DNA from: Cylicocyclus nassatus
Lineage: Eukaryota; Nematoda; Chromadorea; Rhabditida; Strongylidae
DNA: 64,000 nucleotides
Reading direction: 5' to 3'
Assembly: GCA_958299035.1 (NCBI GenBank)
Contig: CATQJL010000001.1
Location: forward strand, 107,339,769-107,403,768
The first letter of the stretch is position 1. Each line of letters begins with the position of its first letter. Positions 866 through 64,000 of the stretch are shown here, one piece after another. The notes under the pieces were generated by a model that was given only the letters and a program-made list of their open reading frames with translations, made no database searches and was not told the origin of the DNA. A program made the translations under genes and the position numbers.

Positions 866-1295
866 ACACCCTGTATTTATCAGGTTGTTTTGAAAGTTTA
901 GTCCATTTTTTTCATCGCTCAATAAAACTCACAGAACAACAATCCAAGTTTGACGGTCCCATTTGATTCAAACTTTTATCCCCTATCTTGCAGCTATATT
1001 TGCCTGATCTACCCGTCTTTGCAAAGTTATCGCCATGGCTTTTCAAACAGCTCACAGTAACGCCCAATCTTTCCTGAACTTTAAAAATTTTTATCCTGAG
1101 GTTAGCGCTGATAACTGTTAGGTAGAGCAAACATTGACTACACTGCAACCATTTTGATTACATGGGCCACGCTTACCAAGTCCATTATAATTATTTCTTC
1201 AATAAAAACCGCGGCTTTTTGATTACATTTACCACGAAGTCATCTGTTCAGGATCGCTTCGATTTCAATAGTAACTGTGGTTAGCTCTTCAAAGC

Positions 1296-2465
1296 TTAGC
1301 ACTCCTTTGCCCAGAGTTTGTAGAGCGTTTGTTTTACGGATTTTATCAGACGTTCGTAAAAGCCTCCTTGCCACGGTGCGTATGGAGTGTTGTAAGGCCA
1401 CTCAGTTTCTTTGTCGAGGACTTCACGCTCAATAGCAGGATCGCTTTTGGCTGCTTGAATCGCTTCTCTGAGTATACTTCCTCCTAGCATGAACGTGGGA
1501 GCGATCACTTATGATTGATTGTGGAATTCCCCTTCTTGCAAAGAAGCGTCGCAACATCCAGAGGAGGCTGTTGTTGACATGTCGGAGACTATGTCCAAGT
1601 GGATTAATCTTATAGTCATACATGTGATTATGCTTACGTAGCATTTACCCTTCGTTCATCAGGTAATGCAATTGGCAAGGGTCCGTAGTAATCCAATCCG
1701 ACATGCCAAACGGCCTAGATTTCTGCACTCGTCTTGCAGGAAGATCCGTCTGCTCTGGATACTTGTAAGGCAGATTGTTGAACTTTTGGCATGGTACACA
1801 TCGCCTCAAGAACCGCGTGACCTGTGCTCGCAGTTTTGGTATCCAATACTGTCGAGAATGTTCGCCATAGTATGGCTTACGGATAGGTGTCCTCTGCCGT
1901 GGCAGTCGTCGATGATTCTTTCCGCCAACAGTTTTGTAGATGATCAACGGAATTTTGGCTTCATCATCTAGGTCGCTGTTTCCCAGTCGTCCATAACATC
2001 GAAGGAGACCTTCGGCATTTTTTTGATATTCAGTTGTTGCATAGAGTTAATGAGTTTTGAGGTTATTTGCCGTCGATGAATCCTGATGAGCAGTTTTCCT
2101 GCGATGAGTATCTCCTTTCCGTTTAGCCTTGTTCCCACAGCGTTACTCGGTACGGAAAGTAGCGTAGTTAATGATATGGGTGACTGGTTGTTGGCATCTG
2201 CTTGGCTTACGGCATTACTGACGAAACGGAGGATCCAGGCTACAATGCGCCTTGTTTCCTGCCATGTCCGTAGCTGCAACAAGGATAACACAGCCGAATC
2301 TTCTTCGCTTTGGCAATCTTCGACCGTCCTGGAGGCAAGAACTTGTTTCTCCTTCATTGAAATTTCCTCTCCTTCGTTGACGGTACTCTTCATTGTGATG
2401 TGCCAATCGCTTTGTGTCCTTTGCTGCGGTGGATTTTGGAGAAATTCCGGACCTGTCCACCACAT
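1296..2465 (-). pseudogene. BEL/Pao polyprotein relic (RNase H-integrase region), left copy
   Basis: Broken minus-strand frames run in Pao order. WWTGPEFL (2465 downwards) is the linker between RNase H and integrase in this superfamily. It is followed by RRIVAWILRF, then an integrase zinc-binding region with the CVPCQKFN knuckle and SRQYWIPKLR (1645-1947). Last comes an integrase core segment ending TPYAPWQGGFYERLIKSVK (1296-1508). Stops and shifts between these pieces mean no intact product. The LTRs, gag, protease and most of the RT are absent. Confidence 0.8.
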
Positions 2466-2675
2466 GTGGTTTTGCAGTTCTTCGAGATTCAGTCCTCTTG
2501 TGCCTGCGTCTGCTGAATTATCTTCGGAAACGACGTACTCGAAATGATGGAGGAGGACGAAGAAGAGCTACAAGAGCGGCAGCAGCGCGACCCAGAAACA
2601 CGTATGTCCGAAGCTCCTCAGCAACCGCCAGAAGAAGACACAGCGCAACCCGGACCGAGTCGAAGCAGGAATGGA

Positions 2676-3738
2676 GATGAAGGAGAAACAAGTTCTTGCC
2701 TCCAGGACGGTCGAAGATTGCCAAAGCGAAGAAGATTCGGCTGTGTTATCCTTGTTGCAGCTACGGACATGGCAGGAAACAAGGCGCATTGTAGCCTGGA
2801 TCCTCCGTTTCGTCAGTAATGCCGTAAGCCAAGCAGATGCCAACAACCAGTCACCCATATCATTAACTACGCTACTTTCCGTACCGAGTAACGCTGTGGG
2901 AACAAGGCTAAACGGAAAGGAGATACTCATCGCAGGAAAACTGCTCATCAGGATTCATCGACGGCAAATAACCTCAAAACTCATTAACTCTATGCAACAA
3001 CTGAATATCAAAAAAATGCCGAAGGTCTCCTTCGATGTTATGGACGACTGGGAAACAGCGACCTAGATGATGAAGCCAAAATTCCGTTGATCATCTACAA
3101 AACTGTTGGCGGAAAGAATCATCGACGACTGCCACGGCAGAGGACACCTATCCGTAAGCCATACTATGGCGAACATTCTCGACAGTATTGGATACCAAAA
3201 CTGCGAGCACAGGTCACGCGGTTCTTGAGGCGATGTGTACCATGCCAAAAGTTCAACAATCTGCCTTACAAGTATCCAGAGCAGACGGATCTTCCTGCAA
3301 GACGAGTGCAGAAATCTAGGCCGTTTGGCATGTCGGATTGGATTACTACGGACCCTTGCCAATTGCATTACCTGATGAACGAAGGGTAAATGCTACGTAA
3401 GCATAATCACATGTATGACTATAAGATTAATCCACTTGGACATAGTCTCCGACATGTCAACAACAGCCTCCTCTGGATGTTGCGACGCTTCTTTGCAAGA
3501 AGGGGAATTCCACAATCAATCATAAGTGATCGCTCCCACGTTCATGCTAGGAGGAAGTATACTCAGAGAAGCGATTCAAGCAGCCAAAAGCGATCCTGCT
3601 ATTGAGCGTGAAGTCCTCGACAAAGAAACTGAGTGGCCTTACAACACTCCATACGCACCGTGGCAAGGAGGCTTTTACGAACGTCTGATAAAATCCGTAA
3701 AACAAACGCTCTACAAACTCTGGGCAAAGGAGTGCTAA
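2676..3738 (+). pseudogene. BEL/Pao polyprotein relic, right copy
   Basis: Mirror image of the relic at 1296-2358. RRIVAWILRF and the following region lie at 2671-3066, the CVPCQKFN zinc-binding region at 3087-3389, and the APWQGGFYERL integrase core at 3526-3738. The same breaks occur in the same places as in the left copy, so the damage predates the duplication. Confidence 0.8.
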
Positions 3739-4168
3739 GCTTTGAAGAGCTAACCACAGTTACTATTGAAATCGAAGCGATCCTGAACAGATGACTTCGT
3801 GGTAAATGTAATCAAAAAGCCGCGGTTTTTATTGAAGAAATAATTATAATGGACTTGGTAAGCGTGGCCCATGTAATCAAAATGGTTGCAGTGTAGTCAA
3901 TGTTTGCTCTACCTAACAGTTATCAGCGCTAACCTCAGGATAAAAATTTTTAAAGTTCAGGAAAGATTGGGCGTTACTGTGAGCTGTTTGAAAAGCCATG
4001 GCGATAACTTTGCAAAGACGGGTAGATCAGGCAAATATAGCTGCAAGATAGGGGATAAAAGTTTGAATCAAATGGGACCGTCAAACTTGGATTGTTGTTC
4101 TGTGAGTTTTATTGAGCGATGAAAAAAATGGACTAAACTTTCAAAACAACCTGATAAATACAGGGTGT

Positions 4169-17124: not shown

Positions 17125-18288
17125 TGTCTGTCTGTCTGTCTGTCTGTCTGTATGTATGTCTGTACGTATGTTCCGAATAGAAAATTCCATTTCTGAACCG
17201 ATCCGGACCAAACTTGGCACACATACAGATCGGGCCCCGGCGCGTGTCATAGGCTACTTTTCGTCATCGATCGATATCGATTTTATCGATTTTTATCGAT
17301 TTTTTTGCTGAGTTCACCTACGGGGCTGGGAGTTGGCACAGGGGGGTAATCGAGCATGGGGATTCCGAATACAATATTGGTTTTCAGGATTATCGATTAC
17401 TTTTATCGATTTTATCGATTTTTTTGCAAAGTTTGAGCTACGGGGCTGGGAGTTGGCACAGGGGGGTAATCGAGCATGGGGATTCCGAATACAATATTGG
17501 TTTTCAGGATTATCGATTACTTTTATCGATTTTATCGATTTTTTTGCAAAGTTTGAGCTACGGGGCTGGGAGTTGGCACAGGGGGGTAATCGAGCATGGG
17601 GATTCCGAATACAATATTGGTTTTCGGGATTATCGATTACTTTTATCGATTTTATCGATTTTTTTGCAAAGTTTGAGCTAGGGGGCTGGGAGTTGGCACA
17701 GGGGGGTAATCGAGCATGCTGATCATCCCCAAGGGGGGTGATCAGCATGCTCGATTACACCCCTGTGCCAAATTCCAGCCCCCTAGCTCAAATTTTCAAA
17801 AAATCGATAAAATCGGTAAAAGTAATGGACGATCTTGAAAACTAATATTGTATTCGTAATCTGCATGCTCGATTACCCCCTGTGCAAACTCCCAGCCCCG
17901 CAGGTCAAACTTTACAAAAAAATCGATAAAATCGATAAAAGTAATGGACGATCCTGAAAACTAATATTGTGTTCGTAATCAGCATGCTCGATTACCCCCC
18001 TGTGCAAAATCCCAGCCTCGCATGTCAAAATTTACAAAAAATCGATAAAATCAATAAAAGTAATCGATAATTCTGAAAACTAATATTGTATTCGGAATCC
18101 GCATGCTCACTTCCCCCCCCCCCTGTGCCAACTCCTAGCCCTGTAGGTAAACTCTGCAAAAAAATCGATAAAAATCGGTAAAATCGACATCGATCGATAA
18201 CGAAAAGTGGACTGTGACACCCGCCGGGGCCCGAAGTGTATGTGTGCCAAGTTTGGTCCGGATACGGCGGAGCCGGGTAAGCCAGCTA

Positions 18289-21443: not shown

Positions 21444-21675
21444 CCAAAGGCGTACCGAGGAGGAGGGGGCGCCCCGAGGATGGGTCGCGAAATTTTTGAA
21501 AGTTGCTTAAACGTGTTATAAAAACGTGCAGAGGTCAGGCAGGGGCCCGAAAAAATTTTGGGAAGCATACCAAAAAAATTTTGGAGTGCGTGGCTAACGC
21601 AACGCACTTTCACCCGAAAATTTTTTTGTCGCAACCCCCCCCCCCCCCAAACGGAAATTCTGGGTACGCCACCGG
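21444..21675. mobile_element. CAGTGGCGTACC-family MITE, copy 1
   Basis: Left end AAAGGCGTACCGAGGAGG, right end CTGGGTACGCCACCGG. Inside are GGGTCGCGAAATTTTTGAAA, GGGGCCCGAAAAAATTTTGG and CGCACTTTCACCCGAAAATT. A shortened relative of 35137-35495. Confidence 0.7.
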
Positions 21676-33042: not shown

Positions 33043-36000
33043 CTGCAAAAAGTAAACTAGATACCATCCCGACAAATTCAGTTGGATGAAGTAAAACCGT
33101 TGACATTTCAGTCAAATTCAAAAATGCTCCCGAATCACTCTCCGCTACTGAACAAACCTCTTCTACCTGTGGTGGAGGCGGCCCGTCTCCCATATATGTC
33201 ATCATCGGTGGCTGTGACTCTACTGCATCTGCTGCTTCACCAAACATGGCTGCCAACCGCTAAAACCATTAAATTGAGTGTGATCCATTCTTATACATAA
33301 GTTTGAGTTTTGTATATTAGGTTGGTCCGAAATTTCGTTGGCCACTTAAAAAGATAACTTCTTTGATCTATGTAAGTTTTTCAATTATAACCAGAAGGCA
33401 CCCTCTACATAGCAGTCAGTACCTCAGCAGTAAATTAATACGAGAAAGTTCGAGAGTCAAAAGCAAGGAAGAAAGCTCACGGTTGGCAATTTTGAATTAG
33501 AGCATTGTTGTTTGATAAAGGAAAATATGCGCATTACTATAATAAAGTACCTTTGCCATCGATTGAAGGCAGTGTCCAAGCAAAGCTGAGCGCATGCTTT
33601 TTGCTTGGAAACTGAAGAGGGGATCCTAACTAAAGCACTGCCCAAGCGGCAGTGCAGTTCATTCACGGCTGAGAGATACATCCCCAAGCCTCCGCGCCTG
33701 CGCCGTGACCGTAAATCGCGAGTATCTCGGAACGGGTCCCAGCGCGAACGCAGTGTTAATAGGAGCAAAGTTGTTTGCGAGTTACGGTCACGGCGCACGA
33801 TCTGAGAATTTTGAAAATGGACTTCTCAGCCGTGAATTGATGATGTGCGCTGCCGCTTTAGCAGTGCTTGAGACCCCCTCATCATTTTCCACACGGGAAA
33901 CCTATGTGCCCAAACTTGCCTGGACACTGCCTTTAAGCAGAGAAAACTCGCGAACCCACTTTTGCAAATTTTGAACAGGCTAGAAAAATCTTATAACGTC
34001 ACCGCGGAAATCAAAACACTCAAACATGGGTTTTATGATATAGCTAATTGTGGGCATTTCTCTTATCCATGACTTTTCACAATTTTTTGATGGAATTTTT
34101 ATCAAGACCATCTAATTTAGCAGGCCTGTATCAAACTCATCGAACACTCACATATCTCCGGAATGCAAAGCTTTCAAAAAAAGATCGTGATTCAACACAA
34201 ACTTTAAGACAAGTGAGCGTTCACGATTCAAATTCAAATTTCGAATTTTCTAGGTAAGCCTAAGGTGCGTTTGGAAACATGAACTCTGATGCTTTCTCTC
34301 AAAGACACAAACGGAAGCAGAAAAAAGCCTATTAAGGGAAAACTGCAGCGAATGACACCCGAGCTGCCCGCCGGAATGTTGTGCGAAGTAAAATTGACAA
34401 GATATAAACTTGATAGCGTGAAAATTGTTATTCAAGTTTCAAAAAGCAGGCTATAGAAAAGAAAAGTTTTCATATCCTGTACGGTTTGCTCTACCCATAC
34501 CTTATTCAAAGTTTTCTGGAGATCCCGCCACATATGAGACGCGCGGCGCGTCTGATATGTGGCGGGAGCACGATTGTACAATGGCGAATTTGTACTGGGG
34601 CATTTCACCTCGCGGCGCGTGCTCCACGGTGATGACCAGTCCGTGCGGTCAGCGAATCAACTATACGTATGTTTTCACCCTCGATATCGACCCCCTATGT
34701 CTTTCCACAACATGACGATTACATGGATTGATGAGGCGCCATCTCGTGAGATTGCGCCACGTTATGGGCGCATCGTTTGGCGTGGCGTGACGCAGGCTTT
34801 CCCACGTTCTTCTTGTTGCCAACACCATGCCAAAGATGCGCCCGCAACTTGGCGCAACCACGTAATCGTCAAGTTGGGGAAAGACATAGGGGGTTGATAT
34901 CGAGGGTACTGGATTGATGAGGCGCCGCCTCGCTTTGAGCTTGCGCCAAGTTGCGGGCGCATCTTAGGAGTGGTGTTGGCAACAAGAAAAACGTGGGAAA
35001 GCCTGCGTCACGTCACGCCAAACGATGCGCCCGTAACGTGGCGCAGGCTCGAAGCGAGGCGGCGCCTCACCAATCCAGTAATCCAGGTCACGTTGAGGGA
35101 AGACATATGGGTTGATACCAGTGGCGTACCGAGGGGGGGGGGGGCGGGGGGGGGCGCGCGCCCCCCCCCCCCCGAGAATGGGTCGCGAAATTTTTGAAAG
35201 TTACTCAAATGTGTTATAAAAATGTGCAGAGGACTTGTTTTTACTTGTAAATAATTAAAATAATTTTTAAAAATTTTTAAAAATTCAAATTAGCCTTGTA
35301 AAAAATTTTTTTTCGGGGGCGTGGCTGACGCCACGCCCCCTTTTTCTGAAATTTTGGGGTCAGGGGCCCGGAAAAATTTTGGGAAACATCCCAAAAATTT
35401 TTTCGGAGTGCGTGGCTGACGCCACGCACCTTCATTAGAAAAAAATTTTTGTCGCGCCCCCCCCCCCGAGCCGAAATCCTGGGTACGCCACTGGTTGATA
35501 CCGAGGCTGCGTTTGTATCGGTGGCGGTCTCAAGATGTGAAAGTGACTTGTATACACTTGGGATTGTTGTAAGTGACTTTTATAAGTGCAGAGAACTAGG
35601 AATTCATTGGAAATACTCTAAAAGGTAAAGAAATTTCAAGGAAGTGATTAGGGAGCCGCAAAAATTTTGGGACATCTCAGGGAAACTTCAACTTGTTTGA
35701 CTGACGCCACGCACCTATTTCAAAAACTTTTAATGCGACTCCTGAACGGAAATCCTGGTACCGCCACTGATATGCATGTAGAGTAGGCGCCATTTGTCTA
35801 CTCACCTCATCGTCTCGCTATTCTACAAAAGCGACACTTAATTTCGTTGAGTGTTGATTCGACGAAAAATAGTCGATCAAGTCAATTTACTAAAAGAATG
35901 CAAAGAATATCTCGGCGCTGCCAAATGAGACGTTAGGCCTTCGTGTGCAGTAGCGGGGAGGTGACTCGGCAGATGGTGCCTACACAATACCACTCTCAGA

Positions 36001-42000: not shown

Positions 42001-45000
42001 GCACACATACAATTCGGGGCGAGGCGGGTGTCGTAGCTACTTTTCGTTATTAATTATCGATTTTATCGATTGAATTTTTGCAAGGTTCGACCTACGGGAT
42101 TGGGAGTTGGCATAGGTGTGGGGGGGGGGGAGAGGGAGTAATCGAGCATGCTGATTACGAATACAATATTAACTTATGGAATTATCGATTACCTTTATCA
42201 ATTTTTTGCAAAGTTCGAGCTCCGGAGTTGGCACAGGGAGGTAAATGAGCATGCTGATTACGAATACAATATCAGTTTACAAAATATCCGTTTTTATCGA
42301 TTTTATCGATTTTTTGCAAAGTTCGAGCTGGGGCTGAGAAGTGGCACAGAGGCGTAATCGAGCATGATGATTCCGAATACAATATTAGTTTTGAAATTGT
42401 CCATTAGTTTTATCGATTTCATCAATTTTTTGCAAAATTTTTGCTACGGGGCTGAGGACTAGCACGGGTGGGAGGGGGGAGTAATCGAGCATACGGATTA
42501 ATTAAAACAGGGAATAGGGAAATGGCATGTAGAAGTGGACAAGGGAAAGGTTGTACTGGGATAGGAAAGGAGCTTTATCATAGCGTTTTGACAGGGCCGG
42601 GCGGAGCCGGGTAAGCCAGCTAGTAGCATATAAAGCGGGACTGGGATAAGGAAATGTTGTGCGAAAATTAGTCGTGATTTCTATGGGTGTATGTCAAGAA
42701 GCGTGATTCTTATTGCCAGACTAGCTTGCTCACCCGGCTCCGCCCGGCCCTGTGAAAACACTGTAATAAAGGTCCCATCCCTATCCCTGTACAGCCTTTC
42801 CCTGTGCCCACTTCTACACTTCATTTCCCGTTTCCTGTGTTGTTTTCGAAATCAGCATGCCCACTTACCCCTCCCGTGCCAACTCCCAGCCCTGTCGCTC
42901 AAACTTTGCAAAAAATCGATAAAAGTAATGGACGATTTCAAAAACTAATATTGTATTCGTAATCAGCATGCTCGTCTACCCCCCCTGTGCAAACTCCCAG
43001 CCCCGCAGGTCAACCTTTACAAAAAATCGATAAAATCGATAAAAGTAATAAACGATTTCAAAAACTAATATTGTATTCGTAATCAGCATGCTCGACTACC
43101 TCCCTGTGCAAACTCCCAGCCCCGCAGGTCAAACTTTACAAAAAAATCGATAAAATCGATAAAAGTAATCGATAATTCTGAAAAATAATATTGTATTCGG
43201 AATCCCCATGCTCACTTACCCCCCTGTGCCAAACTCCCAGCCCGTAGATGAACTCTGCAAATCGATAAAAATCGATAAAATCGATATCGATCGATGACGA
43301 AAAGTAGCCTATGACACCCGCCGGGGCCCGAAGTGTATGTGTGCCAAGTTTGGTGCGGATCGGTTCAGAAATGGAATTTTCTATTCGGAACATACGTACA
43401 CACATACATACATACAGACAGACAGACATACAAACAGACATTCAGCTTTATATATAAGATGGACACTAATTAGCGCATTTTTTAGTAATTTATGATGTCC
43501 TAAGAGCAATTCAAATTTCTAACAAGATATGTATGATCGTCCTATGTGTTGCTCGATCTTATTGAAACAAATTTAAAACATAAGTTTTGGAGGTCAAAAA
43601 CCCGTCAAAATGCAACTAATGGCGTGTTTTGGATATTTCAATGAAGTTTCCAAACAAAAACCGTCAACTTAGCCAGTGCTATTCCGTTAATGAGTTAATG
43701 AGCTAGGGCACATTGCTTGGTAGTATTGAAAGATTCGCGTAGCTTTAATATGGGTTGTTCGATTGGTGACCTCTAAAGAAATCGCCACACATGACCGTCT
43801 CCACATTTTTAACACAGTGCATGATAGGGGCTGGCGGACCAGGTAAAGCCAGCTAGTTGTAAAATACAGCACATGAACATGATAAACTAACCGCTCGGGT
43901 ATGTGGCAATTGCTCAATAACGGCCGCGTATTGTTCTGGTGGCAACGTTTGCTGGAAGATTTGCAATAGTTGCTGCGAAGGCCCGCACAGTGCGATGGCA
44001 TTGGCGATGTGGATCGCCCCCTCTTCAACATTCCCTAAACAACTGAAGTTGACTTTGCCTAACGCTGAAGATCAGAGAGAGTCTATTAGCAAAGAAGCCC
44101 ATTCGACTAAAATTTGTGTTGAAGACAAGATTTGAGTCAATTGCATTGATGGAATGTCATAATTTCTCTGTACCACTGGCGGTGATGGGGCTCGTGCGGC
44201 GCGGTTCCCGCAAGAGCGCTTTGCCTGAGCTATGCAACTCTTTTGCGAGCATGCTCTCTAATCAATTTCCCATGCTTAATTAGCGATTGTCGGCCTTTCC
44301 CACGCCTGTGGTAAGAAAATGAACAAAGAGCATGCTCACGAAAGTAGTGCAGAGCTTGGGCGAGGCGATCGAGCATTACACGAACCGAGCAAGTTTACAA
44401 CGGTAGGGTCTAAATAATCAATCCATCGCAACTTTTCGTAATGGTTCATTAAAAAATTATGTGAGGTAAGCAATAGCAACCATTTTTTCAATTTTCCTAA
44501 AAAGTGCGTTTACACCGTTTAGGAAGCTTCGCAATCTGGTGAATAGTTGAGTATTGAACTCAGCGTCCATGAAAACCCTATTACACAAGTTTCCACATTT
44601 TTTTTTGAAAATTTTTCAAAACGGCCGCTTTTTTCACAGTGACACCATATGTTTGAAGTTTCTACCGTAATCCTACAGTAACAATGAGCGATCGGCGATT
44701 CGCGCTAACTGTAAATCTAAGTTGAACCTCGCTCTACAAAATGGAATCTGAAGCTTCGCAAACTCGCGTCTTCTTGCAGGCGGTCAGCAGAATTTTGGGG
44801 CGCGGCCAAACCTTCAGCGGGCGGTACCTCCTTTACTGTCAAATGTCCTGCTAGCGGGGCAGAATACAGAGTTTTCTGCGGGGCTCGTCAAATAATCTCT
44901 TTCAACGAGCGCTGGCCAAACTTTCAGCAGGCGCTCGGACTCTCTTCAAGCAGTTTCCGAGCGTACGTCGAGCAAACGTGACACTCTATGCTGCAGAGGT

Positions 45001-48000: not shown

Positions 48001-51000
48001 CAAATAGTATCGTTAGGGCTAAGTGCATCGAGAGATCACTTTATGGTTTGCTGAAGGGTAAGGGTAGAGTTAACCTTGCTCTATGCTATAGTTAAATTTA
48101 CCCTGACAAAACCGTTCATGAATCGTTAATCGTTAATCGGGTTTATCGTTTTCTGGGGTAAGTTTTACACTCAAGGGTAGAGCTTACCCTCAGTGTCGTT
48201 GATGAATATGGGTTAATCGCTTTCCGGGGTAAGTTTTACCCTCAAGGGTAGATTAAATCGTCGAGGTTAAGCCTGCTTCATGAATAAGGGTTAAATTTAC
48301 TCTCCAGGGTAAGTTTAACCCGCAGGGTTCGTTGATGAATACTGCCACCTGTGTGTGATGTTGATGTTATTTACAGCCGTTGTTAATGCGTATTGGTTTT
48401 TTCTACAGTATGCATTCCATCTTCAACATTACGTGGATGGTGAGGCACCGTATCGCTTCGCGCTTGCGCTACGTTGCTTTTCTCACCACACCACGCCAAA
48501 CGATGGGTCCGCAACGTGGCACAAACCAGAAACGATGCGGTGCCTCAACAATCCACTCATGCTGAGGCTGGAACTGCACATGCATAGTGTGTATAACTTA
48601 CGTAAACTGATGAAATGTCCTATCTTCTGTACATTTATGATGTGCTTACAATGAGTTATGGACACTTGGAATATTGCCAGATCGCGTCGCGATTAAAATC
48701 GCTTGAAGTATGCCCGGCCCTTAAGATAACCCTTATGTACGAAGTTTGAGCAAGCTCTACGACAAAAAATTTTGGGGCTCGGATACCGAATAGCGCCAAT
48801 CTAATATCGAACTCGTAATCAGCATGCTCGATTACCCCCCCCCCCTGTGCCAACTCCCAGCCCCATAGCCCAAACTTTGCAAAAAATCGATAAAATAGAT
48901 AAAAGTAATGGACGATTCTAAAAACTAATATTATATTCGTAATCAACATACTCGATTACCCCCTGTGCAAACTCCCAGCCCCGTAGGTCAAACTTTGCAA
49001 GAAAATCGATAAAATCGATAAAAGTAATCGATAATCCTGAAAACTAATACTGTGTTCGGTATCCCCATGCTCGATTATCCCCCTGTGCCAACTTCCAGCC
49101 CGTAGGTGAACTCTGCAAAAAAATCGATAAAAATCGATAAAATCGATATCGATCGATGACGAAAAGTAGCCTATGACACCCGCCCCTCCCCAAAGTGTAT
49201 GTGTGCCAAGTTTGGTCCGGATCGGTTCGATAATGGAATTTTCTATTCGGAACATACGTACTTACATACATACAAACAGACAGACATATCGTCTGCACCC
49301 CAGAAAGGTTCCCATAGGTACCACGTCATCTCGCTGCCTTTCGCACTTTTGAACGTGTTAACCTCGGGCACTTCCGTTGAAATCTCAGGAGAAACGTGTC
49401 AAAAAGAGCGGAAGGCAGCGTCTTACCACGTACGCGCGCTGGTTCACATGGGAACCTTTCTGGGGTGCAGACGGTACAGACAAACAAACACTTAGTTTTA
49501 TATATAAGATTATCAGCAGATACCCGTTTCACAAAAGTACCTTAAGGTAAATTCTCAAGGTAAATTTTACCTTGAGAATTTACCTCAAAGTTTAGTATTG
49601 AATGGGTACCTTGAGGTAAATTTTACCTCAGGTACTGTTATTACTGAGAATCCGTATTTATCAAACGGACTGCATTTACCTTGAGGTAAATTCTCAATGC
49701 AACTTCTAACCTTAGCTGGAGGCAAGATTAGAAGGATACCTTTAGAGATCTATAGAATTTCGGAAGCTGGTTTTTTGCATGAGTAATGCAGTAACGTAAA
49801 TTAGGTCACTGTGGCAACTTTGCGAAATTTTGTTACGATTGTTGAGAGTTATGGGGATTGAGCGAGCTTAAGATAAAATTTCAGTCTATATTCTTAGAAA
49901 CTTCATACATTTTGATAAACGCGTGGATGGATGTAGTCATACGCTTTCACAGCATCTTGAGCACCTAGCTGTGTTTAATCATAAAGTCGAAGTTGCTTGA
50001 TGAAACTACTTTGGAAACATCTTCAAAATTATTAGACACTAGCTGGCTTACCCGGCTCCGCCGCATGTTCCGAATAGAAAATTCCATTTCTTAACCGATC
50101 CGGACCAAACTTGGCACACATACACTTCGGGCCCCGGCGGGTGTCACAGCCCACTTTTCGTTATCGATCAATATCGATTTTATCGATTTTTTGCAAAATT
50201 TGAGCTAGGGGGCTGGAATTTGGCAGAGGGGAGTAATCGAGCATGCATGCTCGATTACCCCTCTGCGCCAACTCCCAGCTCCGTAGCTCAAACTTTGCAA
50301 AAATCGATAAAATCGATAAAAGTAATGCACGATTTTAAAAACTAATATTGTATTCGGAATACCCATGCTCACTTACCCCCCTGTGCCAACTCCCAGCTCC
50401 GTAGCTCAAATTTTGCAAAAAATCGATAAAATCGATGTCGATCGATGACGAAGAGTAGCCTATGACACCCGCCGGGGCCCGAAGTGTATGTGTGCTAAGT
50501 TTGGTCCCGATCGGTTCAGAAATGGAATTTTCTATTCGGAACATACGTACACACAGACAGACAGACATACATACATACATACAGACAGACAAACAAACAG
50601 ACATTCAGCTTTATATATAAGAAGATTACGAGATGGTGACGTGTACTGCAACGTAACCCTTGATCCCATTTCCTGACTGGTCATATCGGAATTCAAAATA
50701 TGATTTCACCAAAATGTTTGTATCTCTAATGTACACTGTTCCGCACTCTCGCAGAAAGAAAGAGCTAGTTGTTGAATGCAAAAAATAGATAAATGTTTCT
50801 GATTGAGGAGGAAAGTTTTATCTCAACTCTTCATTTAGGCTCCCGCCAGAGTGCCGAAGCCATGCCAGCGCTACGCCAGCGCCGAGCCAGCGTTTCGATC
50901 GATACACGTGTATTTCGTTCGGGACATCTACCTGCTGAGAACTAGGTCAGCTAGCCCCGCCTCAATGAAATACACGTGTATCGATCGAAACGCTGGCTCG

Positions 51001-54000: not shown

Positions 54001-57000
54001 ATCGGCAGAATGAGACCGTGGCAAGACAAGGTCATAGGGTAAGAGCCCCCATAATGGAACCTATGGGCCAAAGTTCGATCTTTCTCTGTCACTTCTAACT
54101 CCCGAAATTTCAAAGCGAAAGCAACGCTCATCTCCTGTCTTCTGCGAACCCGCCCACTCCATGGACGAGTGACTTCCACGATCAGAGCGCCAGCCGCAAT
54201 GCTACAAGCATGAGGTCCCGCAACGACTCTGCGTTTTCGCCATGATGGGCTTCGCGTTCACTCGTCCATGGGGTGGGCGGGTTCGGAGAGGACAGGAGAT
54301 GAGCGCTGCTTTCGCTTTGAAATTTCGGGGATTAGAATTGACAGAGAAAGATCGAACTTTGGCCCATAGGTTCCATTATGGGGCTCCTACCCTATGACCT
54401 TGTCTTGGTACGGGTCTCATTCTGCCGACCCACTGCCTTTAAACTGATTGGTATTACATATCAGCTTTTTCGGGCTTTCGCATCCGAAAAGTTTGTCCTT
54501 CCCAGTGGCAGGACCATTCCAAGAATTTATGTTTCAATTCTATTAGGTCGTTTCATAACTTCGTCCTTTTTATTTTTGTCGCCGTTTTTCGATGAGGCGG
54601 TTGGTTTACGGCAAAGTACCTATACCATTGAAAAGAGAAAATCTTGCTCTACAAGAACTGTTGTTCGTTTTTGAAGCAAACTTGAATCCCCTTCTTTTAC
54701 GATTTATCAAAGCAAAATTCTTTGAGAGGCAAAAAGATTTCGGCACCTGCAACTTTCGATCCGTATACGGAGCCACAAGTGGGAATTTTTCGTCTGAAGT
54801 TGTTATGAGTGATGAGAAACAACTGTTTGTGGTACTACGGTGCATATAAAAGTAGTGTCCATATCCAAAGAGACGCTATAAAGAAAGATTAAGCGCACGT
54901 TTACCATGTGTGTAGATGTTTTGTGTTTGACACAATTTGAAGAAGTTCCCACGTGAAAAATTTTTTTGAGAAAGCGTAAAATGTTGGCCAGAGCTTGTAC
55001 TCATACATCTACACCACTTAGAAAAACGCATCCATTCCTCAAGTTCCGATAGGAGAACCGTCACATTGTGTCGCTGAACAACGCGCCAAACTCAAGCGGC
55101 AGTAGTCAAGGACAACAACTATTGGGACTTTGTTCAAACGGTCCTATGCATATTGGCATGCTGCAAATTTATCAGTGTTTCAGTCTTGCTTGCTACTATC
55201 CATCCCGCCTTCCTATCACAGAAACATCTTGCGGAATACGGACCAAATGCGGAAAGTGCAGTTGCCAAAATCGCCAATTTTTGCCTCTCAAAAAACTTTG
55301 CTTTGATAAGTCGTAAAGATTCAAGTTTGCTCCAAAAACGAACAACATCTTGTAGAGCAAAATTTTCTCTTTTCAATGGTATAGGTACCTTGCCGTAAAC
55401 CAACAGCTTCATCGAAAAACGGCGACAAAAATAAAAAGTCGACGAACTTATGAAACGACCTAATGCAATTCTACAATAAAGAGAAACCGGTGTTTTGTGC
55501 ACGAAGCAAATACCTTTTTGAAATGATGTCATCTTTACGACAAATTCACTTGCAAACTTTGGTTCGAATGCAAAGGATTCTACAAAATTACACTGTTGCA
55601 AAGTTAGGCTGAAAGACTTGGCTCCATGTCAGGAGTCACGCCGCGCGCCGCGCCGCTTCGCCGCGAACGTCGCGTCTAGATTTTGTACCCCGCAAAACTG
55701 CCCGGTGCCAAAGTGGCACGGCGCCAGTCTAGGGGGGTGGGGGGTGGGGGCAGATACATGGCTCGTGTCATAAGTAAGACTGCGCCAGGAGTGCTGGCTT
55801 CTGTTTTGCTGACAACGCTTGCGGCATCGCTTCGCGAAAAATTCGCGCCGACCGTGACTCCTGACCGTTCCCCGAAAGACTTTGCGACACCCTGTACATA
55901 TTTCTTCGAGGCCACTGCAACTTGCTATCCTCCGCTTATAAGTTTCGAAAATGAGGTGCAAATTCATGTTTTGTCAAAATATGGGGTTTGAACAAAGAAA
56001 ATGGCCACAAATTCCCTTTGATCTTTTGAGACCTGAGACATTCTCATTTTATCGTGTTCAAGAATGTAAGGGTACTTCGAACCGTCTCCTTGTCAAAACA
56101 TGTCATCTCGGGCCCGAAGGACACAATTAGCAATGAATTTTGTCCCAGCAAAAGTTCTATTGGCAATAAAAAACTTTATGCACCGTTAAGACGTCATAGC
56201 GTGCTCTAAATAAACGTCAGTGTATATCAAGCTGGCAAAGGTAGGATTTACCTCAAGGTACGTTGATGAATACGAATCGCTCAAGGTAGAATTTACCTTG
56301 AGATAAAATTTACCTCAAGGTATACTTACCTCAGGTTTAATGATGAATACGGCCTCTGGATTCACCTTGTGTTCATCGATATTTTCAAAAAAAAAAACTG
56401 TCAAAAATACTCGGATTTTTGGTCTGCTTTTTGTTGACAATGAAGTCGGTCGTAATTATCATAGCGCTTCTTTCAGGCACATCTTTGCTGCACATTATTC
56501 TTATTTACTGAAATCCCAGTTTTACACATCCAAACGCTCGTGAATTTTTCTGAATAAGGAGGCAGACTGAAATCAGCTTGCCTCTAGTGATATGGTGGAC
56601 TCCCAAATACAGAACAAATTCGGCATTCATTGCAATTTTCAACTACAGGCCATTTACAGGGTATTCGTGGCGGGACCATCTGTGTGTTAATCCAATTTCA
56701 AAATATGGCGCTGCACACCATGCCACTCATTCTCCTTTTCCTACTCGCTTTCTATAATGAGGAATTATCGTGGACTCTGAGGTTTCTAAAATGACATCTC
56801 AAGTTCAAAGATTCGATTTCGGCAGCTAATGTCTCAAGTTGTGTTGAAATTGTTGGAATCTACTGATTATACTTTGGGAAATTCGAATTTTTTTCGAATA
56901 TTCGAATATCGAATAATATTCGAAAATCGAAATTCTCGAATATTCGACTATCGAATATTATTCGAAAATTGAAAACTTCGAATATTCGACTATCGAATAT

Positions 57001-60000
57001 TATTCGAAAATCGAAATTTTCGAATATTCGACTATCGAATATTATTCGAAAATGGAAGTTTTCGAATCGAATAATATTCGAATATCGAATACCATTCGAT
57101 ATTCGAATTTCGAATATTATTCGGTTCTCGAATAATACTCGATTTCGAATATCATTCGATTTTCGAATACTATGCGAATAAATTATTCAGTGAGACTACC
57201 TGTGAGAGACCAAAACATCTCAGAATAAATTTTTTCAAGTATAGACATTTTTTTATGTTTCAATTTACAACGAAAAAAAAACGGTTCAGTTGCAGCCCCG
57301 ACAAGAAGATGGGTGCCGATTGTAGCGATGTTAAAGTAGTCCCCCCACCTAAGCGATGACTGATTTTCGGAGCGAAAAAGGGGGCTACCAGGCCTGAAAT
57401 TGGCCCGTAAGTGGCCCGGATCTTGCGGTAGGCTCGTGAGTCGAGATGCATGCAGGGTAGAGACGCAGAGTCGTTGCGGGACCCTGCACTCATGACTGTG
57501 TGTGCTATGCGTTCTCTGGCCTTGCAGTTCGAATTAGCTGTACGGGCGGCATTCGGGCCTGCCGTAAGACGGGCCACTTTAAGAGCAATTTTCAAGTTTA
57601 CCAGAACCTCTTTTTCGCACCGAACTTCGTCACCGCTTAGGTAGGGGTCCAATTTAACATCGCCACAAATTCTCGGACCCCTTTTGGGACGCTGCCTTTA
57701 AGAACCTAAAAGCGTACGTGACAGTTGTAAAGATTTCAAAAATCAAAGAAGATTATTTATCCTCATTGAGAGTTGTGGACTGACATGCAGGGGTCCCAAC
57801 AGTATGTGAATCTGTGGGCTGACATCAACCTAGACTTACAGTTTGAAGCGATGTATCGATGCTTTTCACTGTTGTAAATTACCGTAGGAACACTGAGGAG
57901 GGTTTTGAGATCAAGAGCAGTTTGCCCAAGAATGAGAAACAAAAAGGCCGATCTTACACTAGGCTTCTAAAGGCACTCACTATATAAAGAATTTGCGCTC
58001 AACCGTTACGCCTTTTGCAAATTATGCCAGGTACATCATAACAGATGTTTTCCAACGCTTTTCAAAAAAGAGAATGCACATTTAAAAGGCTTGAAAGCGC
58101 GTGCGTAGTTAAACATACGTAAAATCCTGCTACATAGATTTGAAATCTCTTTTTGTTGGGAAACTCTTTTGGATGTCTCATTTCGCAGTTGCTCTTTATG
58201 CTAAGTTCATACCGTGATAACACAACAAGAAAAACATAGGTGATTTGCTTTCCTATTTGTAAGCTGAAGCCATCCCTACAGGATGTTACTTAAAGGTTGG
58301 CAAAAGACTTCGTGAGAGGTATTAGCAATTAAACACTTTGTACATACCCTTGGGACACCCCGTATATGTTGTGGATATCGAATTTCCGAATATTCGATGC
58401 TTCGAATTTTAGAATAGTCAATTTTCTTATCGAATTTTCGAATATTCGGTGCTCATCGAATATTCGAATATTCCATGGACATCGAATGATCGAATTAATG
58501 ACTATCGAATATTCGACTATCGAATAATATTCGAAAGTTGAGAATTTCGAATATTCAACTTTCGAATAATATTCGAAAATGAAAATTTTCGAATCGACTG
58601 TCGAATATTATTCGAAATCTCAGATTTTCGAATATTCGAATTTTCGAATCATTCGCATTTGAATGATTTATTCGAATAATCGAATAATCATTCGATTCGG
58701 TCCAAAGTATACTACTGATGCCCTGTATTGTATGCACCACGATTAGGGAATGCTAAACGTATATTTAGCTAGCTTTGAATGAAGAAGTGTTATACATATT
58801 ATACAGAATAGTACACATGTACTAGTAGAGGAACAAAATCGCTGATAAGGATTTGAGAAAGCGCATTGTGATTAATAAAGATACTCAGTGGTACAATATA
58901 ACGTACACGACGGAAAGATTGAGCAGAATTGACGGGTGACTCGTGGGAGAAAAGATCAGGAACAAGGTTGTCAAGAAATAGCACATTTCGAGAAATTATA
59001 TAACTTCTAGATGTACAAGATGACATATGTACTTTGACTCCTGATGCAGTTTGTAATAAAGCAAAAGATATATTGTAACACAAATCAACCGTTGACTTGA
59101 TATGCGCTTTTTCTGCGTGATGCAAGGCACAGCCCACCGCTGCAAGGATAGCATGAGGTATATCCTCTATTCGGAATTCAATTCTGGGCCCATATCAAGA
59201 CTCAAAAGTTTAGGTACTAACGGTAGAAACGCAATTACTCCAGATGCGATGTACTCGGCATAAGAACAAAGCAAAATAAACCTCTGATAGACCCATATAA
59301 GCCTCAGAAACCCAAGTGAAAGTTGTGGACTCATAGCAGCCTGGTATTACTACGCAGCAGCATTGGACCTTATCCAAATAATGATCCCAAGATATTGTAC
59401 TCATTAAGGTAATGGGGATCACTGCCCTCCGTTTCACAGTTATTTCCTCTTCCCACCTCTCACTAATACCATCCTGAACATCGCAAGTCGTCTGCATAGG
59501 ATGCTAGTCCATTTCCTTGGGATCCGCGAGTCATTAAAAAGCAGCGAAGGTTCCTTCATTAGTTAGTAGAAAACCTGTATTACTAGGCGGCGATGCTTAA
59601 AAACACCATTTCGCATAGGTGGATAGCTTTGGAAACTTCAGAATCAGCATCCTTGAATGCAAGAATGCACTGCTGCTAGAGCAACCTCTAATTGGCTGAA
59701 ACACACAAGGTCCCGCCACGAATACTCTGTAAATGACCGCGGGATACCGTAGTTGAAAGTTGCAACGACTGTCAAACCTGTTTTGTCTCCCAGATTCCTA
59801 TAGAGGCGGTTGCGGACTTCTGATAACTTGAATGTTAAACCTCCACGTTGAAGCGTTACTTTTCGTACTATCTCGTTATCAAAGACCGCAACGCTTAAAG
59901 CTATCATGAGTCCGCCCCAACACGACGGGAGCATCTTCCCGCTCAATCGACACGCATTCTTCCCATGTTAGAAAATGTGTTAGAAGTTTTGGGAAAAGTG

Positions 60001-61187: not shown

Positions 61188-61574
61188 TTGGTCATTGTCG
61201 AGTTTCCCCTAGACTTGCCGGTGGAGGAGTCATACGGAAGGAGGTCCTCGTGACTCCGTTCCGAATGATGCGCGGCACCTGGGAACAGCATTTTTGGCAT
61301 CAGCGTTCCAGGCTGATTTCAAATATATGTGTCTTATTCCGAAATCGCGAGCTAAATTAGGTACAGGCCCCGTAAAATCCAATTTCCCATGCGTCGCTTT
61401 GAACACCAAGGCGCGGCGCGGCTAGGAACGTTTGGTCCCGAAGCGCTACAGGTTTCTTGCGAGCGACAATGAGCGCGCACCCTTTCCACATATATTTTTT
61501 TAAACTTGTGAAGGGAGCTGTCGTCAAGATATACCTTGCATTGACGAGAACAACATGAATGCTAAAGAAAGATT

Positions 61575-61885
61575 TCAGTGGCGTACCCAGGATTTCCGCT
61601 CGGGGGGGGGGGCGACAAAAATTTTTTTTCAAATGACGGTGCGTGGCGTTAGCCACGCACTCCGAAAAAATTTTAAGGGTGCTTTCAAAATTTTTGCGGG
61701 TCCCCAACCCCTAAAACTTGGAAAAAGGGGGCGTGGCTGACGCCACGCCCCCGAAAAAATTTTTTTTACAAAGCTAATTTGAATTTTTAAAAATTCCTGA
61801 AAATTATTTTAATTATTTACAAGTATAAACAAGTCACTTGCACATTTTTGTAACCCATATAAGTAACTTTCAAAAATTTGGCGAC
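61575..61885. mobile_element. CAGTGGCGTACC-family MITE cut by the LTR retrotransposon
   Basis: Starts CAGTGGCGTACCCAGGATTT and follows the family in order (TGGCTGACGCCACGCCCCC; CAAGTCACTTGCACATTTTT; AACTTTCAAAAATTTGGCGAC). It stops at GCGAC where the complete copy (35137-35495, read inversely) continues CCATTCTCGGGG. The retrotransposon begins at the next base. Confidence 0.88.
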
Positions 61886-61972
61886 TGTTGTCGTATAGTG
61901 GCCTTTTTAGGTCACTATGCGACAACCTTGACGGGGCCATAAAGATATGGCCCCGTTTGAGGTATAAAAGCC

Positions 61973-61980
61973 CGGGGGGA
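61973..61980 (+). promoter_or_regulatory. TATA box of the LTR
   Basis: TATAAAAG, 17 bp after the second U3 hairpin. Confidence 0.75.
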
Positions 61981-62042
61981 GAGCAAGGGAGGCGCTCGTT
62001 CATACCCACCGTTTGTTGTTAATCATATTATTGTGCCATATA

Positions 62043-62048
62043 AATAAA
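62043..62048 (+). terminator. LTR polyadenylation signal
   Basis: AATAAA, 63 bp after the TATA box and 28 bp before the LTR end. Confidence 0.6.
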
Positions 62049-62080
62049 TTTGTTCATCCACACCACTGTTGAAACATTTT

Positions 62081-62098
62081 TGGTGCATCGGCCGGGAA
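62081..62098 (+). promoter_or_regulatory. primer binding site, tRNA-Gly(GCC)
   Basis: TGGTGCATCGGCCGGGAA is complementary over 18 bases to the 3' end of eukaryotic tRNA-Gly(GCC) with CCA added (TTCCCGGCCGATGCA-CCA). It starts 4 bases after the LTR, as expected for minus-strand priming. Confidence 0.85.
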
Positions 62099-62116
62099 GA
62101 GCCTTCGCCGATCAAA

Positions 62117-62640
62117 AGTCTAGGGCATAAACCTAGCAAAAAGTCCAAGAAACCCTTGGCAAAGAAAGTCTAGGCTACCACGCCTAGCATCAAGACCAGG
62201 AGATCCTTGGCACAAAAGTCTAGGCTACCACACCTAGCATCAAGACCAGGAGATCCTTGGCACAAAAGTCTAGGCTACCACACCTAGCATCAAGACCAAG
62301 AAATCCTTGGCACAAAAGTCTAGGCGACCACACCTAGCATAAAAACCCAGGATACTCCTGGCACAAAAGAAGTCTAGGGCATAAACCTAGCAAAGACCAA
62401 GGAAGTCTTGGCAAAGAAAGTCTAGGGTAGAAACCTAGCAAAAGACCAAGGAAAAACGTGGCAAAGAAAGTCTAGAGCATAAATCTAGCAGAAAGACCAA
62501 GAAAAGCTTGGCAATAAAGTCTAGGCAATCAAACCTAGCAAAAAGGCCAGGAAAACCTCTGGCACGTATCTAGGCTAGCAAACCTAGCGAAAAGACCAGA
62601 AAAGACTCCTGGCATTGAACTAGGGCAACCTAGTGCCAAC
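62117..62640 (+). ncRNA. tandem double-hairpin array in the retrotransposon leader
   Basis: Ten full units of 48-54 nt and a final half unit start at 62117, 62167, 62217, 62267, 62317, 62371, 62419, 62469, 62518, about 62567 and 62618. Each unit has hairpin A (CTAGG, 4-8 nt loop, CCTAG) and hairpin B (CCAAG, about 5 nt, CTTGG), separated by A-rich linkers. Stems are conserved by compensatory change: hairpin A is CTAGA/TCTAG in the eighth unit; hairpin B is CCAGG/CCTGG in the fifth, and the G-U intermediate CCAGG/CTTGG occurs in the second and third. It lies between the primer site and gag. Confidence 0.85.
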
Positions 62641-62862
62641 CATATTCAAGTAGTAATCATTTTTGATTTATTGCTCGGCAAAAGTAGCTGTAAATAACGT
62701 TCTATCCTACTTGGATTTTCAACGCAAGTGCTTTGCTTGATGGCAGCACAGTTGGTTATGTAACCTAGGGACACATCCCACATTCGCGCATAAAGCGAAT
62801 ACCTAAGGTTTATTGAACGTCAGATATTTCTATTACTGGCGAAGAAGCCTCAACAACACAAA
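62641..62862 (+). other. rest of the retrotransposon leader
   Basis: Unstructured AT-rich stretch between the hairpin array and the gag-like start codon; it may hold splice or packaging signals, but none is recognisable. Confidence 0.5.
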
Positions 62863-63918
62863 ATGTCTCTGAACTTTTATAAAGAGGAGATTTTGTCGTT
62901 GTCAACATTACTGGCGAATATACTGAGCAAGTTCAATTACTTGAATGATTTTCATCCTGATCTGAATCGCAGTAGGGAGCAATCGCAAGAATGTTTCGGC
63001 AGATTGGATGTTCTCAATACATGCCTTTCGCAAGTGAAAGTCGGGGCAAAAATGTTGCACTCAAAAGTAGATAAACTATCAGACTTTTACATGGCACACT
63101 GCTATGAACAGAAACAGTTGATAGTGCGTGAGGTAGAAGCGCTGGAAGAAGAAAGTGGATTTTGCGATATACTTTCCAAAGCAGAAGTACTTATTCATAT
63201 GGCAGAGCTACAAATGAAGTATGCTCGAATATACGCAAAAAAGTGCGCAAATCCATCGCCTTCACAGACGAAACAAGGCGAAAATGTCTTGGATGTTATT
63301 AATCCAGTAACGGACGAGGAGTCAGAACGCGAAATACCCGCGGAACCTGGTGTAAAAGAAAATGACGAGGCAAGCAAAATCATCACGCCCACAAACGATA
63401 ATTATGAACAATGCAATACTTATAATACAAAGACTCGTACGCACGAAACCTGTGCTGATGTAAAACTTGACGAAATTTCAATCAAAAGCGCCCGAAATGA
63501 AGAAGTGCCGATGCAATTTGGGGCTGCCTACAGCAAACCGTATCTCCTATCGGAAAATTACACTGCAAAGGGTAGCGAAAATACTCAAAAACTGCGATTG
63601 TTCCGCAAGATATTTATCAAGCTTGCCGATCGTAAACATCGGCAAGGAAGACAGTGCTGTCTTTATTTTTATCCGCTCCAACACACCTCTTCAAATTCTC
63701 GACTCATCTCCGACAACGAAGTGGTTCCCGTCTTCACGCGCACGCCCCCTCATCAACGTCCAATTAGAGACCCCGATAAGAACACTATGCCGGACGTACT
63801 ACCGCTTACCCCGATGAAGATACCAAGTCGTCATCCTTATTCGCCTATCTGCTCCACTCCTCAATCCAACGTCACCACTTACCACTATCTGTTACCAAAG
63901 CAAGCCTTCATGCCGTAA
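62863..63918 (+). CDS. gag-like ORF of the LTR retrotransposon
   Basis: 351 codons, the longest clean frame in the window, starting at the first ATG after the leader (context CACAAAATG) and ending TAA at 63916-63918. Residues 1-130 look helical with heptad-like leucines, as in the N-terminal coiled coil of many gag proteins. Residues 145-215 are acidic, and the C-terminal third is Pro/His/Arg-rich. No zinc knuckle is visible. I do not recognise the family; assignment to gag rests on position behind an LTR, primer site and leader. An overlapping second frame (63467-63817) may be chance. It is not similar to the BEL/Pao gag relic at 28840-30330. Confidence 0.6.
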   Translation: MSLNFYKEEILSLSTLLANILSKFNYLNDFHPDLNRSREQSQECFGRLDVLNTCLSQVKVGAKMLHSKVDKLSDFYMAHCYEQKQLIVREVEALEEESGFCDILSKAEVLIHMAELQMKYARIYAKKCANPSPSQTKQGENVLDVINPVTDEESEREIPAEPGVKENDEASKIITPTNDNYEQCNTYNTKTRTHETCADVKLDEISIKSARNEEVPMQFGAAYSKPYLLSENYTAKGSENTQKLRLFRKIFIKLADRKHRQGRQCCLYFYPLQHTSSNSRLISDNEVVPVFTRTPPHQRPIRDPDKNTMPDVLPLTPMKIPSRHPYSPICSTPQSNVTTYHYLLPKQAFMP

Positions 63919-64000
63919 AGTCGCCATCCATTCCACTGCCATGTCGTCAAGCTGCAATTCACTACACCACTACGCCACCAAGCCGCCGTAACGCCAGCCA

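Follow-up and report, generated by a model that had tools for sequence, protein, structure and literature searches.

The window, that is, the whole 64,000-nt stretch of Cylicocyclus nassatus DNA analysed here, contains the leader of an LTR retrotransposon copy, and this leader hosts a tandem array of short potential hairpins. The following features of the element were placed:

61886..62076, + strand: 5' LTR, TGTTG...AAACA, 191 bp; start set by a repeat break, end read from the sequence
61887..61926, + strand: U3 inverted repeat, 18-nt arms (89%), 4-nt loop
61931..61956, + strand: U3 inverted repeat, 11-nt arms (100%), 4-nt loop
61963..61969, + strand: TATAAAA, putative TATA box, from the sequence
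62043..62048, + strand: AATAAA, putative polyadenylation signal, from the sequence
62081..62098, + strand: primer binding site, 18 nt, 4 nt past the LTR, by sequence match
62115..62640, + strand: tandem hairpin array, 10 units of ~50 nt and a half unit, by Tandem Repeats Finder (TRF) and hand parse
62740..62763, + strand: 7-codon upstream ORF with the first ATG past the primer site, ending ATGTAA
62863..63918, + strand: 351-codon ORF in gag position, without known domain

The LTR start at 61886 is well supported, because the LTR breaks an interspersed repeat whose copies at 35182-35493 and 21484-21530 (both on the - strand) align up to exactly 61885 and beyond it resemble each other, not the LTR. 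Besides this clean junction at 61885/61886, the LTR has TG..CA ends and, judged by sequence only, a promoter and a poly(A) signal. The primer site is the sole match in the window at ≤ 2 mismatches (chance expectation 0.00) and was taken to be the complement of the 3' end of an animal tRNA-Gly; no tRNA genes were detected in the window by ARAGORN. The original prediction had placed the array between a tRNA-Gly primer site and gag, and this arrangement holds for the LTR, the primer site and the ORF in gag position, with the tRNA identity being our assumption. Neither a second LTR copy nor a second array was found within the window; a 3' LTR and any pol would fall past its end. The two strong U3 inverted repeats (61887-61956) are expected to lie at the 3' end of the element RNA.

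The array begins 16 nt past the primer site and precedes the 351-codon ORF. TRF reported it as three overlapping rows, of which the row with the shortest period (62113-62603, period 50) has 9.8 copies with 80% matches and 7% indels; the half unit extends the end to 62640. The ten and a half units of ~50 nt described originally were thus recovered by TRF and by hand parse. The hand parse gives 21 hairpins, 11 of class A (CTAGG/CCTAG) and 10 of class B (CCAAG/CTTGG and variants), with a start-to-start spacing of 23-27 nt. The positions listed below are those of the hand parse, for A11 together with the sequence itself:

62120..62136, + strand: hairpin A1
62145..62159, + strand: hairpin B1, T before the stem as in class A
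62170..62187, + strand: hairpin A2
62196..62210, + strand: hairpin B2, G.U at pair 4
62220..62237, + strand: hairpin A3
62246..62260, + strand: hairpin B3, G.U at pair 4
62270..62287, + strand: hairpin A4
62296..62310, + strand: hairpin B4
62320..62337, + strand: hairpin A5
62347..62361, + strand: hairpin B5, pair 4 G-C (compensated)
62374..62390, + strand: hairpin A6
62397..62411, + strand: hairpin B6
62422..62438, + strand: hairpin A7
62446..62461, + strand: hairpin B7, A.G mismatch at pair 4
62472..62488, + strand: hairpin A8, pair 5 A-T (compensated)
62497..62511, + strand: hairpin B8
62521..62538, + strand: hairpin A9
62547..62562, + strand: hairpin B9, pair 4 G-C, pair 5 G.U
62570..62587, + strand: hairpin A10
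62596..62612, + strand: hairpin B10, pair 4 G-C, A.C mismatch at pair 5
62619..62634, + strand: hairpin A11 of the half unit, 5-bp A stem with one A-T pair beneath, GCAA loop

Loop length in the hand parse ranges between 4 and 8 nt while the stems still pair, and the linkers consist of 57% A and 11% T. Eighteen of the 21 hairpins (not A10, A11 and B5) have G at -2 and C at +1, which would add a pair over a one-nt bulge; since both letters hardly vary, this says little on pairing. The primer site lies inside a predicted hairpin AUCGGC...GCCGAU (62081-62112). In the predicted energy minimum, the UGGUGC that opens the primer site is paired to GCAUCA at 62187, and GCATCA ends hairpins A2, A3 and A4 (62187, 62237 and 62287).

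Classes A and B are alike beyond their form. Of the 17 consensus positions outside the loop, 12 are the same in both classes (5' AAAG-N-C.A.G, 3' C.T.GCA), a likeness with a frequency of 0.0056 among random 5-bp hairpins with A-rich flanks under a crude model. In the stem the classes differ at four positions, which amount to two compensated pairs (T-A to C-G and G-C to A-T, taken from the consensus arms). The mean local score of A against B was 7.57, compared with 5.94 ± 0.35 for B hairpins that were all permuted alike (maximum of 300 permutations, 7.11). In the autocorrelation (0.62 at lag 50, 0.28 at lag 25) only the 50-nt period is clear. From the shared positions and the local score, we infer a basic unit of probably ~25 nt, doubled and then multiplied, so that the A and B classes would probably be old duplicates of one motif.

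All stem changes named in the original prediction are present in the sequence: the A stem of unit 8 is CTAGA/TCTAG, the half unit reads ACTAGG-GCAA-CCTAGT, and the B stems are CCAAG/CTTGG in units 1, 4, 6 and 8, CCAGG/CTTGG in units 2 and 3 and CCAGG/CCTGG in unit 5. It did not mention the broken stems B7 (A.G) and B10 (A.C), nor the G.U top pair of B9. The hand parse yields pairing in 103 of 105 stem cells, with G.U in three (B2, B3 and B9); for B7, B9 and B10 the arms that pair best were selected visually, a choice biased towards pairing. This parse was used for the pair counts because of faults in the MAFFT alignment of the units, in which hairpin B of unit 7 is displaced and those of units 9 and 10, being longer, appear as insertions. 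The units for MAFFT were cut by hand, with neighbours overlapping by ≤ 3 bases and five bases between units 5 and 6 omitted.

The arms are more conserved than the loops, with a mean pairwise identity of 0.96 (A) and 0.84 (B) for arms, 0.59 and 0.52 for loops and 0.73 and 0.70 for linkers. When all 21 hairpins were pooled, 103 pairs were counted and the highest value in 5000 column shuffles was 99; this result leans on the A/B split because a difference shared by descent is counted many times. Within classes, covariation is not significant, as 447 of 5000 column shuffles reached the observed pairing in class A and 587 of 5000 in class B. Across the six distinct stem variants, 28 of 30 pairs are intact, with P = 5e-5, 0.004 and 0.028 under random substitution at transition shares of 0.33, 0.67 and 0.9, respectively; four of the six are fully paired (P = 0.0004, 0.011 and 0.063 at the same shares). 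RNAalifold, run on the automatic alignment and hence the less favourable view, gave a covariation term of -0.06 kcal/mol, with changes on both sides in 2 of 11 pairs. We counted no more than four or five compensated changes that are independent, and the A/B split accounts for two of these. Judged by sequence comparison, this is suggestive of a pairing constraint on the array stems and is not proof. The original statement that the stems, not the bases, are conserved stands in so far as pairing is kept better than under random substitution and A and B together covary more clearly. It was overstated with regard to the A arms, which are identical in 9 of 10 full units, to covariation within classes and to the RNAalifold term.

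The same variants bear on a reading as a passive minisatellite. Here, a palindromic stretch would have been multiplied by slippage or by template switching during reverse transcription, without function, and the apparent pairing would reflect young related copies or arm-to-arm copying (quasi-palindrome correction). Units 2-4 are 92-96% alike, therefore part of the expansion is recent. The internal repeats of non-autonomous LTR elements of Culex vary among the copies of one family, according to the excerpt of the source (PMC3286476), and the partial text of another report describes repeats of both kinds, direct and indirect, as a common feature of the LTR-ORF interval in BEL/Pao and Gypsy elements (PMC4580426). 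Palindromic tandem arrays also occur elsewhere in the window (56891-57180 and 58372-58660), as do strongly folding segments in general (see below). On the other side, loops and linkers have dropped to 52-73% identity while the arms stay at 84-96%, and the variants keep pairs better than random change would. Slippage alone gives no reason for arms being better conserved than loops; arm-to-arm copying would. We regard passive multiplication as doubtful, though with an appreciable share of the probability.

Exact 5-bp hairpins with loops of 4-9 nt number 17 in the 526 nt, the maximum being 6 among 500 dinucleotide shuffles and 14 among 230 further windows of the same DNA, which overlap one another. 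The mean energy of the 21 hairpins is -5.86 kcal/mol, against -1.32 ± 0.33 in mononucleotide shuffles (lowest of 300: -2.23). The ten aligned units fold at -143.5 kcal/mol compared with -90.4 ± 10.0 under a common column permutation (0 of 100 as low), a null which uses the MAFFT alignment and does not keep dinucleotides. With 200 shuffles, the fold z of the array is -5.84 for the sense and -7.09 for the antisense strand; the sense values are -1.65 for the leader downstream of the array and -1.33 for the first half of the ORF. Other cuts gave -4.51 for 62113-62603 (60 shuffles), -4.11 to -5.37 for 350-nt pieces of the array and -4.48 for the whole leader (20 shuffles). Single units range from -1.00 to -3.55 in sense (mean -2.05) and from -0.54 to -2.79 in antisense (mean -1.59), the sense value being lower in 8 of 11.

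These z values are unremarkable here; the DNA of the window is rich in inverted repeats. Background windows of 350 nt (n = 46) have a median z of -0.6 with z ≤ -4 in 24%, those of 490 nt (n = 23) have a mean of -5.56 (sd 8.63, lowest -36.37), and four of nine other tandem arrays fold lower than the -4.51 found here (-4.94, -4.99, -6.74 and -9.68). Fold z was therefore dropped as proof of structure; the number of exact hairpins, the mean hairpin energy and the common column permutation serve as better controls. The frequency of low-z windows also suits passive multiplication. As to the expectation that the array folds better than dinucleotide-shuffled sequence, the hairpin count and the negative z agree with it, but this z is not unusual among background windows.

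When 790 nt are folded without constraint, 11 of the 21 hairpins are predicted with a mean pair probability > 0.5; with the pair span limited to ≤ 60 nt, 17 of 21 exceed this value, the others being B2, B3, A10 and B10. The modelled row of separate hairpins (-106.2 kcal/mol) is 50 kcal/mol dearer than the free minimum (-156.2 kcal/mol) because arms also pair between units. About 21 regular hairpins, as originally claimed, are thus parsed in the sequence, but as a row of separate hairpins they are not the predicted energy minimum. During transcription, local hairpins would form first. Nothing in particular speaks for dimerisation via the self-complementary CTAG: this sequence is part of the stem arms and is left unpaired in loop A10 only. 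An Rfam scan of 61500-64000 to E = 1 found no family at the gathering cut-off; its three sub-threshold matches all lie outside the array.

Further repeats were observed in the window. The minisatellites at 56891-57180 and 58372-58660 consist of TTCGAATATTCGA-like palindromes and have a fold z of -9.68 and -6.74. Tandem arrays of 113-120 nt at 17281-18183, 42194-43243 and 48841-49142 look similar to one another, have ATCGATTTTATCGAT-like ends and occur in both orientations; the 350-nt windows at 17500 and 42500 have a fold z of -26 and -23. Beside an N run (366-865), a perfect inverted repeat of 1492 nt (100%; 866-2357 and 2677-4168, 319 nt apart) is either an assembly artefact that mirrors the sequence or an inverted duplication of very recent origin. 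Mirrored ORFs with a retroelement-like look and no Pfam match overlap this repeat (866-4168).

The identity of the 351-codon ORF as Gag rests on its position, because no Pfam domain above the cut-off, no relatives and no usable structure model were obtained. Among 949 candidates no relative was found at E = 10, six peptide patterns of the ORF had no match in viral contigs, and a single-sequence structure model (mean pLDDT 35.4) was discarded as being of no value. The missing relatives carry some weight, because the protein collection does include such nematodes: ORF 2548-3063, which has no Pfam match and which we presume to be retroelement-like, has just two relatives at E = 0.001. Each is a sequence of the strongylid Cylicocyclus nassatus, with 77% identity across 70% of the query in one case and 80% across 67% in the other. 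This single ORF, which could mislead, points to a strongylid or a close relative as the probable source of the window. Searching for the hairpin-pair pattern gave 4 viral and 9 bacterial loci with a single match apiece. The four viral loci were scanned and contain one A-type hairpin each and no array; all 13 were taken as chance and rejected as relatives of the array, the nine bacterial ones being judged by the single match alone.

The array is free of ATG. From the primer site to the 351-codon ORF, ATG occurs at 62740 and 62758 only, both within the 7-codon frame, which ends 100 nt ahead of the ORF. This would suit a device for translation or RNA stability, such as a region for internal entry or shunting to the ORF, or a guard of the leader against small RNAs. 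However, the lack of ATG may go back to a single ancestral unit, scanning should not be blocked by hairpins this weak (mean -5.9 kcal/mol each), and no Rfam family reached the cut-off; we consider such a device very improbable. The motif TTTYAG (nematode outron trans-splicing) is absent from the + strand between 61911 and the window end, which says little as about two are expected.

Repeats between the LTR and the gag-position ORF, present here according to TRF and hand parse, are also found in the leaders of gypsy, ZAM, Tirant and Achilles. Achilles of the olive fruit fly is an example of the BEL/Pao and Gypsy elements with such repeats, for which the excerpt of the source gives no regular unit, copy number or kept pairing (PMC4580426). 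The gypsy insulator of Drosophila has 12 degenerate Su(Hw) sites in 350 bp of the 5' UTR (PMC7168160), i.e., about a dozen degenerate leader repeats of an LTR element with multivalent action. These sites serve the DNA-binding protein Su(Hw), and the passages available do not describe them as hairpins. ZAM and Tirant, also of Drosophila, have units of 307 and 102 bp in 2.3 and 2-6 copies; the ZAM 5' UTR repeats bind HP1a, and the partial text links the repeats of both elements to chromatin placement and describes no hairpin array (PMC5408687). Plant Sireviruses resemble the present element in being LTR elements with repeated palindromes of variable middles. Their motifs lie upstream of the LTR TATA box and on the 5' side of ENV, unlike the array, have a CGG-CCG core except in Tnd-1 and were likened to transcriptional activators, as far as the excerpt goes (PMC2829016). 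One of the Culex Mag-like elements with 5' UTR repeats has a repeat region of ~3 kb, and the accessible part of the report names no hairpins (PMC3286476).

These systems raise the question of a control array at the DNA level, in which tandem dyad-symmetric sites for a host protein would serve as enhancer or insulator after the LTR. Tandem repeats are common in the UTRs of LTR elements and, in the partial sources, those with a studied function (gypsy, ZAM) act on DNA; repeated palindromes are known from Sireviruses (PMC2829016), and the U3 of the same LTR carries two strong dyads. Compensated changes are possible in DNA palindromes as well, and the antisense strand folds as well as the sense strand. 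Sites for a DNA-binding protein would, however, be odd in having two half-site sequences (CTAGG and CCAAG) side by side, a middle varying from 4 to 8 bp and asymmetric flanks (5' AAAG-N, 3' CA). Three G.U cells (B2, B3 and B9) stand against one A.C (B10), a count too small to decide. A DNA-level role appears unlikely, but it is a serious rival.

Retroviral psi is a structured leader between primer site and gag, the place where structure is predicted here. It is a handful of individual stem-loops, not ~21 repeated ones. Engineered tandem arrays of MS2-type hairpins look similar to the leader array; the likeness to coat-protein hairpins of the MS2 type is one of shape only, namely a one-nt bulge on the 5' side beside a 5-bp stem. 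Among the matches listed (titles and abstract openings; most subscription journals lie outside the collection), none was found to describe hairpins arranged in tandem within an LTR-element leader. The claim that no leader of this kind has been described must be narrowed, since leader tandem repeats as such are described in the sources excerpted; a regular array with kept pairing was not met there, and the regular leader array with mostly conserved pairing may be a new form of such repeats.

We tentatively prefer, at somewhat less than even confidence, an array acting at the RNA level as a platform for multivalent protein binding, perhaps for packaging by Gag. The grounds are its place, the A-rich and one-sided linkers, loops free to vary in length, a common form built from two stem sequences, and pairing that is mostly kept. 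A hairpin motif of ~25 nt (AAAG-N-5 bp-short A-rich loop-5 bp-CA) would have been doubled into the A/B pair, and this pair would then have been multiplied to ten and a half copies. In the genomic RNA, short hairpins of like form would follow one another, joined by A-rich linkers that pair weakly. They would be occupied many times over by one RNA-binding protein, for which the Gag of the element is the most likely candidate, and such many-fold binding would select the full-length RNA for packaging. The position speaks for this platform, as the array starts 16 nt past the primer site and ahead of the gag-position ORF; retroviral packaging signals are well established to sit between primer site and gag (abstract openings of PMC8096270 and PMC10726167). 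Against it count the lack of significant covariation within classes, the broken stems B7 and B10, an antisense fold that is as good by z (-7.09 vs -5.84 in sense) and pairing between units beating the hairpin row. The 351-codon ORF is Gag by position only, and no second copy of the family lies within the window. More specifically, and rather doubtfully, the array may be a natural high-copy RNA tagging array, in which ~21 bulged hairpins, kept as structures and not as letters, form a handle for a single protein and packaging is set by avidity.

To our knowledge, little is known about the choice of RNA for packaging by animal LTR retrotransposons, outside yeast Ty elements and retroviruses. If the RNA platform is true, leader repeats, which are treated mostly as DNA elements in the sources cited, would gain a role at the RNA level, and a repeated, countable binding motif would make the packaging choice directly testable by deletion of units.
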